This document shows positions 55,169 through 61,390 of a stretch of DNA of 64,000 nucleotides, in pieces (the first letter of the stretch is position 1; each line of letters begins with the position of its first letter). This DNA comes from Faecalibacillus intestinalis (GTDB lineage: Bacteria > Bacillota_I > Bacilli_A > Erysipelotrichales > Coprobacillaceae). The translations under genes were made by a program, and so were the position numbers. The stretch lies in the NCBI RefSeq assembly GCF_003024685.1, contig NZ_PYLQ01000002.1, positions 13,062-77,061 on the forward strand. Reading direction: 5' to 3'. The notes beneath the pieces were generated by a model. It saw nothing but the letters and a program-made list of their open reading frames with translations, was not told the DNA's origin and searched no databases.

Positions 55169-55903
55169 ATGCTTATTGATAAGTTAAATATTATTTTAAA
55201 TTCTAACGATGAATTTTCTCCTAAATATATTATTAGTTCATTTGTTAAAAATAACTTAAATGATATTCCAACTATGTCTATTGATGCAATTGCTCTTTCC
55301 TGTCATACATCGAAAAGTCAAATTTCTAAATATGTAAAATCTTTAGGTTATGAAACTATGAAAGATTTTAAAGATGCTTGTTTAGATAACATTTCTAGTA
55401 TGGAAAGAACCAATAAAACCTTATTTTCATTACAGAATAGTATAGAAAAACAATTTTCATCTTTTACAAATCACATCATTGATGAATTACATTACACAAT
55501 GAATCAAATTGATGAAATCAATTTATTAAAATTAGTAAATGATATAAAGAAAAGTAAACGTATCTTTGTTTATGGTCATGGTCATGCAAGAACTCTTTGT
55601 ACCTATATTCAAAATGAACTTTCCGCAAAACAAAAAGAAACTATTATCTGTGATGTTGATTTTGAAAAAGAATATAATTTTCAAGATGGTGATCTTCTTT
55701 TACTCATTAGTATCAATGGAAATACGTTTTACTTTGATAAAAGAGTGGTGCATCATATTTTAAAGTGTTCAGTTAACACATGGCTGATTAGTTGTAAAGA
55801 TAATATAAACTTTTCAAAGAACTATTTATATATTCCAACATTAAATGATAAATATAATGATTATTTATTAAGACATATTCTTGATTTTATCTTGATGTAT
55901 TAA
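55169..55903 (+). CDS. RpiR-family transcriptional regulator
   Basis: A 244-aa regulator. HTH about 1-75 (SIDAIALSCHTSKSQISKYV), SIS part about 105-235 (RIFVYGHGHARTLC). Ribosome site GAGGGGAGG. Encoded upstream of the GH1 phospho-beta-glucosidase (55988) on the same strand and likely its regulator, although a terminator stands between. Gap of 40 bp after the peroxiredoxin gene. Confidence 0.83.
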   Translation: MLIDKLNIILNSNDEFSPKYIISSFVKNNLNDIPTMSIDAIALSCHTSKSQISKYVKSLGYETMKDFKDACLDNISSMERTNKTLFSLQNSIEKQFSSFTNHIIDELHYTMNQIDEINLLKLVNDIKKSKRIFVYGHGHARTLCTYIQNELSAKQKETIICDVDFEKEYNFQDGDLLLLISINGNTFYFDKRVVHHILKCSVNTWLISCKDNINFSKNYLYIPTLNDKYNDYLLRHILDFILMY

Positions 55904-55963: not shown

Positions 55964-57410
<1,447 letters not shown>

Positions 57411-57412
<2 letters not shown>

Positions 57413-57436
57413 AAAAACAGCTACTGCTGTTTTTTT
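57411..57436. terminator. Bidirectional terminator between GH1 and NUDIX genes
   Basis: AAAAAACAGC/GCTGTTTTTT stem with TACT loop, flanked by A and T runs. Confidence 0.85.
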
Positions 57437-57906
57437 AAATATCTTTCTAAAAATGAATGTGCAAGCGATCCTTGTTTAATTTCTTTTCTTGATTCTTCAA
57501 TTGAATACCAATGAGCTTCATCGACTTCATTTGTCAGTTTAAAATCTTCACTATCAACAATAACGGCATAATTATGCATTAATGTATTAGATGGTTGATA
57601 ATATTCATTATCATTATATGTATAATCAATTACATTTAAATTAACTTCTTCTTTAATTTCTCTAATCAATGTTTCTTTCGCATTTTCACCTTTTGTAATA
57701 TATCCAGCTACTAATACATTAAAATCTTTTCCATATTGTTTAATAAGCAAAATCTTATCTTTTGTAGGATTAAAGATAATTGTTGAAATAGCACTATTAA
57801 ACATTGGAAAACGAAATTGTTTACAAGTTGGACAATAAGGTACAAGCCCATCTATCCCACATTCTTTTTCTATAAGTTTAGTTCCACATTCACTACAATA
57901 TTTCAT
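57421..57906 (-). CDS. NUDIX hydrolase with N-terminal zinc ribbon
   Basis: A 161-aa nucleoside-diphosphate-linked hydrolase. The zinc ribbon is CSECG and CPTCK (about 4-27), and the Nudix box is GYITKGENAKETLIREIKEEV (written in parts as GYITKGE and REIKEEV). The layout resembles NudC NADH pyrophosphatase without its N-terminal part. Overlaps the MFS stop codon by 1 base, so the two are coupled. Confidence 0.85.
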   Translation of the reverse strand: MKYCSECGTKLIEKECGIDGLVPYCPTCKQFRFPMFNSAISTIIFNPTKDKILLIKQYGKDFNVLVAGYITKGENAKETLIREIKEEVNLNVIDYTYNDNEYYQPSNTLMHNYAVIVDSEDFKLTNEVDEAHWYSIEESRKEIKQGSLAHSFLERYLKKQQ

Positions 57907-59133
57907 TATTTATCACCTACGCCATTATAACGTAAACAAATAATAACTAACAATATTAAATTTATAAGATGAAAACATAAAGCGATAATAAAAACAATTT
58001 GATAACTTTGTGTAAAATCATATAAATAACCAATTAATGTTAATGAACTGGCACTTCCTACATTTGTAAGAAAACCAATAAAAGAATAAGTTCTTGCATA
58101 ATTTTCATTTCCAAAGAAATAACGTGTTAACATTGGAATTCCTACAGCACCAACTGAATAAATAGAACCAAACATGAATGAACCGATATAAAGTAACATG
58201 ATTTCTTGATGAATTACACCTAAAAACAATAATCCTAAAGAAAAACAATTTGCTAGAATCATAATAATAACTGCTTTTATAGGATTTAATAAATCACTTA
58301 AAAAACCAATTAATAATTTTGTACTGATATTACCAATCATTGTAAGCGACATAAGTATTGCTCCGCTAGTAGCTGATAAATGAATACTCAAAGCAATACC
58401 TGATAAATGTTGAGAAATACCTGTAATGGATGTATGTAAAAGTGTGAATATACACATACATATAAAACTGATTGTTATTAAATTGACTTTTTTATTTTGT
58501 ATTTTAATAGTATCTTTTTTTTCTTGATATCCATAAGGTAGCATTCCTTCTTCTTGAGGATTAATTTTCCAAGGAACAATTAATACTGGAAGAACTAAAA
58601 TAAGGATACAACTAGCCATTAATCGATATGTCATTTGCCAACCATAACTTATAATCCATGAACTTAATAATGGGGAAAAGATAGCTCCTGCAAGACCACT
58701 AAAACTTAAAGCTAAGCTCGTTGCTAATCCGTGTTTTTCATCAAACCAATTTGTAATAATTACTGTAATAGGAACCATTCCTCCAATACCAACACCTATT
58801 CCTCGTAAAATACCTAATATATAAAATAAATACACTGATCGACTATAAGACATCATCCAAGTTGAAACACTTGATAAAAGAACTCCTATAAGAAGAATCT
58901 TTTTATAGTTATATTTTCTTATTAACTTTGACATTTTTAATGATGTCAAAGCCGTTATCAATGTGGATAATGTTGCATGCATTGCAAACGTTCCTTTTAA
59001 AACATGTAAACTTTTTGATACTGGTGTATAAAACATACCTATGGCATTTGTACATAAACCTATAGAACTTGCTGCTAAACAACACATCAAAAAAAACAAT
59101 CATCCAATGTTTATAACCTTTATTAATCATCAT
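57906..59133 (-). CDS. MFS transporter, OFA-like, with a probable frameshift in a T8 tract
   Basis: Carrier with about 12 membrane segments. The natural start is ATG 59133 (or 59130), which has GGAGGT upstream and reads MMINKGYKHWMIVF. The remaining 397 codons lie one frame away. The shift occurs at an A8 run on plus (59089-59096; T8 in the mRNA sense): with seven Ts the two frames join as MIVFLMCCLAASSIG, completing the first membrane helix. It may be phase-variable, a pseudogene, or a sequencing artefact. The operator at 59183-59199 lies upstream and the NUDIX gene follows. Confidence 0.8.
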
Positions 59134-59182
59134 TTTTACCTCCAATAAAAATATATATGATGTACTTCTATAAAACATTAGA

Positions 59183-59199
59183 TTTCCTAAATTAAGAAA
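59183..59199. promoter_or_regulatory. Palindromic operator-like site upstream of MFS gene
   Basis: TTTCCTAAATTAAGAAA, an imperfect palindrome. The same 17 bp recurs at 61150-61166 upstream of the DJ-1 operon. It lies 50 bp before the MFS start codon, next to a -35-like position. Probable target of the RpiR at 59207-59971. Confidence 0.65.
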
Positions 59200-59222
59200 A
59201 GGAGGATTAACCCCTCCTTGCA
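59198..59222 (-). terminator. Hairpin at the end of the RpiR gene
   Basis: AAGGAGG/CCTCCTT stem, 7-nt loop, T-rich minus-strand flank. It overlaps the RpiR stop codon and abuts the operator. Confidence 0.6.
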
Positions 59223-59971
59223 TACTCTTGTGCTATTAAACTTGCTATAAATTGTAATTGATAAGGGTGACTATTTTGATCTTGTTTAGAATCAAAGGTA
59301 ATCACATGATCAATAAAATCTGGATAACTTTCTTGTTTACTTGAAATCAACCAAATCTGTGGTTTCTTTAATCTATTCTTTAAAGTTCTAATATCAGGAT
59401 AATCAAAATAACTTCCTGTATAAGAAAAGATAATTAATAAATCATCTTCATTGGTTGATGAAATATATTGTAATTGTTGCTTATAGGAAATATTTGAATA
59501 AGTTTGTTTTCCTAACATCAATAAATCACTTTGTAAATTAAAAGCAACTGCTCCTGCTTTTAATAAACCAAAGATACCTACTTGTTCATATTTTTGGATT
59601 TCTTTGCATAATGCATCTATTTGTTGTATATCTATTGATTTTTCTACCATTGTAATACTTTCTTTTACTTTTGAACTATATTCTTTTAATCTATCTTTAG
59701 CTTTAGAAGATGTAGAATATTGTTCAAAAGTCATATTTGTAGTAATCAACAATTCTCTTAGTTCATTAAAATCATTTAACCCTATTTCCTTACAAAAACG
59801 AGATATAGAACTCATTGCTACAGAACATTCCTTAGCCATCTCTTGAATACCAATATCCTTAATATCATCTAAATGATTTAATAAATACGTTGCAATTTGA
59901 CTATTCGTTGAATCTTTCTTTTCACTCGCTAAAGTACTTAAAAAAACAATCGGTAACTTTCCATAAGGCAT
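59207..59971 (-). CDS. RpiR-family transcriptional regulator of the DJ-1/MFS regulon
   Basis: A 254-aa regulator. HTH about 15-90 (QEMAKECSVAMSSISRFCKE), SIS domain about 115-240 (GIFGLLKAGAVAFN, LLIIFSYTGSYFDY). Third gene of an operon with two DJ-1-family genes, 8 bp after the second. Repeated palindromes upstream of this operon and the next gene (MFS) are its likely sites. Confidence 0.84.
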   Translation of the reverse strand: MPYGKLPIVFLSTLASEKKDSTNSQIATYLLNHLDDIKDIGIQEMAKECSVAMSSISRFCKEIGLNDFNELRELLITTNMTFEQYSTSSKAKDRLKEYSSKVKESITMVEKSIDIQQIDALCKEIQKYEQVGIFGLLKAGAVAFNLQSDLLMLGKQTYSNISYKQQLQYISSTNEDDLLIIFSYTGSYFDYPDIRTLKNRLKKPQIWLISSKQESYPDFIDHVITFDSKQDQNSHPYQLQFIASLIAQEYARRG

Positions 59972-59979
59972 ATCATCAT

Positions 59980-60531
59980 CTACTTTCCACCAGCAAAATT
60001 ATACATTAATCCTTCTTTCATTTCAGTAACATCCTTACCAAAGACTTCTAAAATTTTAAAAGAAAAAGGATAAGGTGTTGCTGGTCCTTGACTCGTTACA
60101 ATATTTTGATCAAAAACAGCGACTTCATTTACAAAATCTCCACTTACAAGTTTATCTTGATAACCTGTATATCCTGTTACTTTTTTACCTTTAATGACAT
60201 TGGCTTTTTCTAAGACAACTGTTCCTGAACACATCGCTGCTATATATTGATGATGCTCATTAAAATATTGAACAAGTGAAATCACATCTTGATTTTCTAA
60301 TAAATTTTGACCACCAGGTCTTCCTCCAGGTAAAACAAGCATATCATAGTTTTTAATTTCATCATTAAAATACTTATCTGCTTTAATATACATATCATGC
60401 ATTCCTCTAACAAATTCATTATTAAAACTAAATGTCTGACATTCTAATCCCCCTCGACGAAGTAAATCCACAATTGTTAATGTTTCTCCTTCTTCATATC
60501 CTTCAGCCATTAATACTGCAACACGTCCCAT
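59980..60531 (-). CDS. DJ-1/PfpI-family protein (YajL-like), copy B
   Basis: Class I glutamine-amidotransferase-like fold: 183 aa, with Glu in YEEGETL and nucleophile-elbow Cys in AAMCSGTVVLEKA. Family members include deglycases, glyoxalase-like and chaperone activities. ATG 60531 is chosen over 60561 because AAGGAGG lies 9 nt before it. One bp after copy A. Confidence 0.85.
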   Translation of the reverse strand: MGRVAVLMAEGYEEGETLTIVDLLRRGGLECQTFSFNNEFVRGMHDMYIKADKYFNDEIKNYDMLVLPGGRPGGQNLLENQDVISLVQYFNEHHQYIAAMCSGTVVLEKANVIKGKKVTGYTGYQDKLVSGDFVNEVAVFDQNIVTSQGPATPYPFSFKILEVFGKDVTEMKEGLMYNFAGGK

Positions 60532-60532
60532 T

Positions 60533-61096
60533 TTATTCATCCTCCTTGACATCAAATGCATTAAAATAAACCATTCTCTTTTTAACTGCTAAAGCATCTC
60601 CACCTAATAATTCTACAAGTTTATAAGCAAAAGCATAAGCTGTTGCTGGTCCTCTACTTGTAACAATATTGCCATCAATGACCACTTTATCATTTAAATA
60701 AGTCCCTTGTTTTATTTTTTGATCATAGCCTTGATAAGCTGTAAATTTTTTATCAACTAATAAATTTGCTTTTTCTAAAACAATAGGTGCTGCACACATA
60801 GCACAAACATATTTACCTTTTTCATTCATTTGTTGTAAATATGAAATAAGTGTTGGGTTATTTTTCATCGCTTCTGCTCCACCATAACCCCCTGGTAAAA
60901 TAACCATGTCATAATCAAGAAGTGTCTCATTTAAGATGTGATCACTTCTTACAATGATTTCATGTCCTCCTTTAACCTCTTGTTCAAAACCTACTAAATC
61001 ACATTGAAGATGTGCTCTTTTTATAATATCTGCAATTGTTAGAGCTTCACCTTCTTCAAAACCTGACGCTATTATAATTGCTGCTTTTTTCATCAT
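60533..61096 (-). CDS. DJ-1/PfpI-family protein (YajL-like), copy A
   Basis: A 187-aa DJ-1-fold protein with Glu in FEEGEAL and elbow Cys in VCAMCAAPIVLEKA. First gene of an operon with copy B and an RpiR regulator. GGAGG lies before the tandem ATG codons (61096/61093). Upstream it has the operator at 61150-61166. The paired copies diverge near the elbow (CAAP against CSGT), suggesting different substrates. Confidence 0.86.
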   Translation of the reverse strand: MMKKAAIIIASGFEEGEALTIADIIKRAHLQCDLVGFEQEVKGGHEIIVRSDHILNETLLDYDMVILPGGYGGAEAMKNNPTLISYLQQMNEKGKYVCAMCAAPIVLEKANLLVDKKFTAYQGYDQKIKQGTYLNDKVVIDGNIVTSRGPATAYAFAYKLVELLGGDALAVKKRMVYFNAFDVKEDE

Positions 61097-61149
61097 TATT
61101 CCTCCATTTCATCTTTACAATAATCTTTACAATGAAATGAAACAATGGA

Positions 61150-61166
61150 TTTCCTAAATTAAGAAA
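61150..61166. promoter_or_regulatory. Palindromic operator-like site upstream of DJ-1 operon
   Basis: TTTCCTAAATTAAGAAA, identical to 59183-59199; flanking bases are also shared, 26 of 28 in total. A -35-like TTGTTT with TATTGT 17 bp on follows it on the minus strand. The site lies just upstream of the -35, an activator-like position. Confidence 0.65.
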
Positions 61167-61192
61167 AAAGCCTAAGAATTTCTTCTTAAGCT
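61163..61192 (-). terminator. Terminator after EIIA remnant
   Basis: AAGCTTAAGAA/TTCTTAGGCTT stem with GAAA loop and a T run that runs into the operator. Confidence 0.7.
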
Positions 61193-61390
61193 TTAAGATA
61201 TTCAATAACATCTTTAGCATCTTTGGCTTCTAATAAAACTTGCATGGCTTTTTTATTATCCATAACTGCATAAAGATCTTTTAAAGTATTTTTAGTTACT
61301 TGAGGTTCTTTCATATTCATAGCAATTATAAATCATTGTTTCTTTATCTCCTGTTAAATCTAGTAAGATAAGATCTTTATCAATCACCAT
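61186..61390 (-). pseudogene. Remnant of a PTS fructose-type EIIA domain
   Basis: 205 bp, so a frameshift is present. Frame 1 reads MVIDKDLILLDLTGDKET, the normal start of a EIIA-Fru domain. The next frame carries IAMNMKEPQVTKNTLKDL, then LLEAKDAKDVIEYL, the usual C-terminal helix. The middle of the domain with the active histidine (about 80 residues) is missing. This is a deletion-derived fossil. Confidence 0.7.

Follow-up and report, generated by a model that had tools for sequence, protein, structure and literature searches.

Why should the same 17-bp near-palindrome stand before two neighbouring transcription units, one encoding a pair of DJ-1 proteins with an RpiR-family regulator and the other an MFS transporter with a NUDIX hydrolase? 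The locus lies on the minus strand of a 64,000-nt stretch of the Faecalibacillus intestinalis genome, referred to here as the window, and a sequence-only reading had proposed that the repeat defines a regulon of the RpiR protein encoded between the two copies. This proposal is now backed by comparative footprinting, by the co-occurrence of the site with RpiR orthologues, and by unlinked sites that precede the same genes in other genomes, and it is very probably at this palindrome that the regulator encoded between the two copies binds.

The repeat and the genes around it

The 17-mer TTTCCTAAATTAAGAAA is found at 59183-59199 and 61150-61166, exactly where it had first been placed, with no further exact copy in the window. 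These two copies, 1,967 nt apart, are also the only ones in the whole genome (about 2.79 Mb), and none appeared across 100 dinucleotide shuffles of the window. A whole-genome search with the degenerate form TTTCYTAAWTTARGAAA returned the window sites as its two perfect matches, plus a single one-mismatch site inside an ORF; the repeat is thus not scattered over unrelated intergenic regions, which the sequence-only reading had named as an outcome speaking against a regulon. A two-mismatch scan for the 17-mer gave 30 matches vs 57 in its reversed control, i.e., background only, and most one-mismatch sites outside the regulon lay within ORFs or in unrelated places and were discarded. In the direction of the genes (minus strand) the repeat reads TTTCTTAATTTAGGAAA, and the flank shared by the two copies, TTTTCTTAATTTAGGAAATC[C/T]A[T/A]TGTTT, is identical at 26 of 28 positions, a figure upheld on recount. 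The description of the repeat as a palindrome stands in part: it is palindromic but imperfect in the window (seven of eight pairs), with perfect versions, TTTCCTAATTTAGGAAA and TTTCTTAAATTAAGAAA, present among relatives in the family.

The gene placement was also correctly read, one copy preceding DJ1a-DJ1b-RpiR and the other MFS-NUDIX, both on the minus strand. The complete order on that strand is site, DJ1a (60533-61096), DJ1b (59980-60561, whose start may be internal to the listed ORF), RpiR (59207-59971), terminator-like hairpin, site, MFS transporter (57906-59099, with its N-terminus in another frame), and NUDIX hydrolase (57421-57906), which resembles the C-terminal part of NAD+ diphosphatase. 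Operator 1 (61150-61166, minus strand) lies about 54 nt upstream of DJ1a-DJ1b-RpiR and is kept in relatives. Operator 2 (59183-59199, minus strand) occupies the gap between RpiR and MFS, and is kept in relative L053 with the same linkage and at the unlinked MFS genes of genomes G004 and G058. The minus-strand hairpin that closes rpiR and directly precedes operator 2 (AAGGAGGGGTTAATCCTCCTT followed by a T-run, 59200-59219), has a counterpart just before operator 1 (hairpin and T-run, 61170-61194, minus strand), both being read from the sequence. With such a terminator-like structure after rpiR, the MFS-NUDIX unit would need its own promoter and so its own copy of the site.

The nearest NCBIfam models of the MFS transporter are of lactate and oxalate-formate type, all below their cut-offs, and these matches would loosely fit organic-acid export. 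Close to its start the gene shows a frameshift at a minus-strand T8 run (window 59086-59137), with MMINKGYKHWMIVFF and LMCCLAASSIGLCT in different frames, whereas the gene in L053 is open throughout; possible causes are a sequencing error, slippage, and phase variation. Near the locus there is also a GH1 6-phospho-beta-glucosidase-like gene (55988-57412), and such a gene lies near or adjoins DJ-1/RpiR in L166, L185, L186, L204, L220, and L224, e.g., in Trichococcus and Stoquefichus, a recurrent neighbourhood that may hint at the metabolic context of the locus. A second, more divergent RpiR-like gene (55169-55903), with HTH_6 below cut-off, is located between peroxiredoxin and GH1 genes, about 3 kb from the first.

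Distribution of the site and of the regulator

Orthologues of RpiR were called where identity changes abruptly along the match list. On this basis they were found in 19 of 43 family genomes, at 44-81% identity, most of them with DJ1a or DJ1a-DJ1b directly upstream of rpiR, and in every case where DJ1a adjoins rpiR the site precedes DJ1a. Of the 19 genomes with the orthologue, 9 carry exact matches to TTTCYTAAWTTARGAAA, vs none of the 24 without it (hypergeometric P about 1.6e-4, taking no account of relatedness). The site is also found away from the regulator. In G004, where rpiR (contig 64) has no DJ-1 gene beside it, sites stand before the MFS orthologue (contig 83) and before DJ1a-DJ1b-DUF1275 (contig 58), and DUF1275 is likewise preceded by a site in G035, G041, and G005. 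This indicates that the regulon follows its target genes and not only the neighbourhood of the regulator. Genome G041 further carries the 19-bp ATTTCTTAATTTAGGAAAT near a contig end beside a phage-type integrase (L101 3257-3273, G041:C6), with a second copy preceding DJ1a where another contig begins (L061 294-310, G041:C32), as though the operator had been the attachment site of an integrative element that is now flanked by the two copies. The G041:C6 site was rejected as regulatory, having no regulated gene downstream and resembling the end of an integrated element.

The 24 family genomes without the orthologue served as negative control and hold 25 distinct DJ-1 loci (26 matches, two being pieces of one broken gene), 23 of which have no site. 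The two exceptions, in G001 and G023, are both DJ1a relatives and look like relics. In G023 the DJ1a gene is decayed, with several stops, next to a good operator and with no RpiR orthologue at E <= 1e-20 (L153 2730-3170, G023:C13), likely a relic of the regulon. In G001, DJ1 and NUDIX are open and the site is good, no RpiR orthologue is found at E <= 1e-20, and an RpiR paralogue is present, so that in this case the site may serve a different regulator. This genome is the main difficulty for a simple one-regulator model.

One candidate for such a reader, alone or shared, is that paralogue (about 38% identical, G000:C51), the recognition helix of which is nearly identical to that of the window RpiR and which has a similar palindrome, TTTCCAATRTTTGGAAA, upstream of its own cluster. 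We nevertheless regard this as improbable: the genomes that have only the paralogue (G009, G015, G027, G028, and G033) contain no exact site, the DJ-1 genes found in G009, G015, G027, and G033 lack it, and over the 71 loci described below the site tracks the neighbourhood of the orthologue. The paralogue itself is present in many genera of the family, and its palindrome is conserved about 700 bp upstream (L071 5288-5304 and L072 5348-5364, with RpiR taken as the plus strand).

Used alone as query, the window RpiR retrieved no related loci, whereas an alignment of 17 RpiR orthologues retrieved 71 in named genomes, most with DJ-1 genes beside rpiR. The hosts include Thomasclavelia, Massilimicrobiota, Stoquefichus, Beduini, Sharpea, and Solobacterium, as well as Lachnospiraceae, Hungatella, Clostridium folliculivorans, Trichococcus, and Coriobacteriaceae/Atopobiaceae; some of these loci come from family genomes under other names, and the two sets are not independent. 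The general form of the operator is ATTTCC-N7-GGAAAT (in Trichococcus, for example, GATTTCCAGATTCTGGAAATT). With one fixed criterion it was found upstream of DJ1a at 48 of 49 RpiR-linked loci, spanning Erysipelotrichales, Lachnospiraceae, Trichococcus, and Coriobacteriia, vs 7 of 429 control ORFs from the same loci, and together with a -10 hexamer at 26 or 27 nt at 47 of the 49 vs 2 of the 429.

Scanning 18 whole distant genomes for the composite of operator, 27 nt, and TATNNT gave 17 matches and none in the reversed control. Fifteen precede a DJ-1 gene or an MFS orthologue, those at DJ-1 genes belonging either to the rpiR-linked operon or to a separate third DJ-1 gene (G048, G056, and G052) and the MFS orthologue being that of G058. 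Of the other two, one is a Trichococcus operator from among the fifteen, matched in the reverse direction, and one is unexplained. It follows that the predicted regulon is essentially DJ-1 plus the MFS transporter, with DUF1275 joining it in some lineages and NUDIX apparently riding along in the genus of the window.

These distributions also bear on a non-regulatory origin of the repeat, in which a piece of a terminator or of an AT-rich promoter happened to be duplicated. Both window copies do come directly after a terminator-like hairpin, with its T-run overlapping their edge, yet in relatives the palindrome follows unrelated upstream sequence, including in the G+C-richer Coriobacteriia, it is far better kept than the rest of the upstream DNA, and control ORFs lack it. 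Such an origin is hardly credible, and we rejected it on the cross-lineage conservation, the control ORFs, and the whole-genome composite scans.

Operator spacing and the direction of control

A -35-like element adjoins both window copies, as had been noticed initially, and to this can be added a -10 hexamer exactly 27 nt after each. Operator 1 is followed after 4 nt by the weak -35-like hexamer TTGTTT (61140-61145, minus strand) and then by TATTGT (61117-61122, minus strand), while downstream of operator 2 are the similarly weak ATGTTT (59173-59178, minus strand) and TATATT (59150-59155, minus strand). The two promoters, TTGTTT-17-TATTGT and ATGTTT-17-TATATT, obey a spacing rule that is general for these sites and shared by many gut bacteria. 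Of 69 distinct promoters, 52 have the -10 hexamer (TA...T) exactly 27 nt behind the operator and 11 have it at 26 nt, 63 in total, the highest count at any single offset across 2,000 shuffles being 10. The -35 element is TTG-like in its first half only, its last three positions holding about 0.2 bit or less, and its mean match to TTGACA is 2.6 of 6 vs 1.5 in shuffles. If the -10 hexamer is placed at -12 to -7, the operator covers roughly -56 to -40, with its centre near -48. In several rumen Erysipelotrichaceae a single operator lies between divergent DUF1275 and DJ1a. Of nine DUF1275 sites, only four follow the spacing rule.

A fixed distance from operator to -10 together with a poor -35 is a trait of activator-dependent sigma-70 promoters. 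Adding the operators shared by divergent genes, the architecture suggests an activator that touches the polymerase, as none of these features would be required by a repressor, and thus favours activation over simple repression. The same RpiR on the same operator might instead block the polymerase at the -35 and be released by its ligand, which we take to be rather unlikely. The operator does touch the -35 region, AlsR is named a repressor in its profile model, and most of the named RpiR regulators matched (MurR, AlsR, and HexR) are mainly known as repressors. Moreover, the centre near -48 differs from the textbook activator positions (-41.5 and -61.5), and a dimer bound at that position might also get in the way of sigma region 4 or alphaCTD. 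However, repressor operators need no fixed distance to the -10, which 63 of the 69 promoters keep in front of different genes; the -35 is degenerate, as expected where an activator is needed; and one operator is common to divergent promoters.

From the comparative evidence, which supports the operator and its regulon, their association with this RpiR clade, and the constant spacing, we infer both the contact between RpiR and operator and activation rather than repression. It is probable, in our judgement, that the palindrome is the operator of RpiR and that the regulator acts as an activator from a fixed site, a ligand of its SIS domain inducing the DJ-1 pair, rpiR, and MFS-NUDIX. An RpiR dimer (or tetramer) would sit directly in front of a promoter whose -10 is recognisable and whose -35 is poor, and would most likely recruit RNA polymerase from its fixed position, with the operator centre near -48. 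A metabolite bound in the SIS domain would switch on the genes, operator 1 driving the two DJ-1 enzymes and rpiR itself and operator 2 the MFS-NUDIX unit.

The regulator, the DJ-1 enzymes and related systems

The window RpiR contains Pfam HTH_6 (50.3 bits, cut-off 28.3), as do all 17 members of the alignment. The Pfam SIS profile matches 13 of 17 relatives at E <= 0.1, although at this threshold not the window protein itself, whose AlphaFold2 model (pLDDT 82) matches the SIS domain of MurR in Foldseek (TMt 0.83) and also matches NanR and RccR; the SIS domain, though diverged, is present in profile and fold. All NCBIfam equivalog cut-offs were widely missed. Of the four side chains through which NanR contacts the phosphate of ManNAc-6-phosphate, two are kept, S179 and S181 aligning with S183 and T185 of RpiR, and the others, Ser135 and Thr184, align with invariant Ala139 and Tyr188, an invariant Lys138 adjoining Ala139. 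As only half of these contacts are kept, a phosphosugar ligand is uncertain, and the pocket could plausibly take some other ligand with negative charge.

The two DJ-1 proteins score 148.9 and 170.8 bits against TIGR01383 (cut-off 131.25), and in the alignment DJ1a and DJ1b keep E15, E18, R28, G74-G75, C106, and P158 of human DJ-1, A107 being Ser in DJ1b. These are residues of the cPGA hydrolases, with catalytic Cys, Glu/Glu/Arg, GG oxyanion hole, and Pro. Human DJ-1 and Escherichia coli YajL are efficient cPGA hydrolases through these Glu, Glu, Arg, Gly-Gly, Cys, and Pro residues (PMC10915168, PMC12135873), and for DJ-1 the kcat/Km on cPGA is more than 10^4-fold higher than that of its methylglyoxalase reaction (PMC10915168). 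The handling of a reactive aldehyde or keto compound, initially suggested for this gene set, is possible but not singled out by the residues, which fit cPGA hydrolysis at least as well. The DJ-1 pair would remove a reactive side product of glycolysis, either cyclic 3-phosphoglyceric anhydride (cPGA) or methylglyoxal, and the inducer would be a phosphorylated central-carbon metabolite; as a hypothesis, it would make sense for cPGA hydrolases to be controlled by a SIS-type protein that senses an intermediate of glycolysis. A bolder and decidedly tentative generalisation is that of a widespread dedicated DJ-1 activator, an RpiR clade of Bacillota and Coriobacteriia that would respond to a phospho-metabolite of glycolysis by inducing tandem cPGA hydrolases and an exporter from about -48.

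If true, the RpiR/DJ-1 system would be a regulon for the control of metabolite damage. What DJ-1 (PARK7, the Parkinson protein) does in nature is still a matter of debate, and since the predicted regulon is essentially DJ-1 and one transporter, the compound sensed would tell what the enzymes are for. RpiR promoters with strictly fixed operator spacing would also be useful for learning how RpiR activators work.

RpiR regulators, RpiR activators (NanR), and DJ-1 enzymes are each already known; titles and abstracts of the open-access literature gave no description of an RpiR/DJ-1 regulon, also under PfpI, ThiJ, or methylglyoxal. Regulons of RpiR-family factors have been reconstructed comparatively in lactic acid bacteria, the main text of that work dealing with carbohydrate and agmatine regulons and making no mention of DJ-1 or PfpI (PMC3616900). 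RccR of Pseudomonas (PDB 8K3B, PMC5489143), MurR, AlsR, and HexR belong to the same family, RccR and MurR being among the best structural matches of the window RpiR, but have other target genes. NanR of Streptococcus pneumoniae (PMC12713135; PDB 8TX9, 9DQN) shares the RpiR fold with HTH and SIS, as seen in profile and Foldseek matches, a near-palindromic site of 17-18 bp, and a proposed activation, the mechanism of which its authors consider unique to date for an RpiR regulator (PMC12713135). Its sites, however, lie about 55 bp upstream of the -35, whereas the window site ends 4 nt from it; its sugar contact Arg148 aligns with Met152, and its minor-groove Arg67 is replaced by Ala/Asn in the RpiR clade, so DNA would be read differently. 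With DJ-1 and YajL (PMC10915168, PMC12135873) the window enzymes share the same aligned catalytic residues, but here they form a tandem pair under a dedicated predicted regulator.
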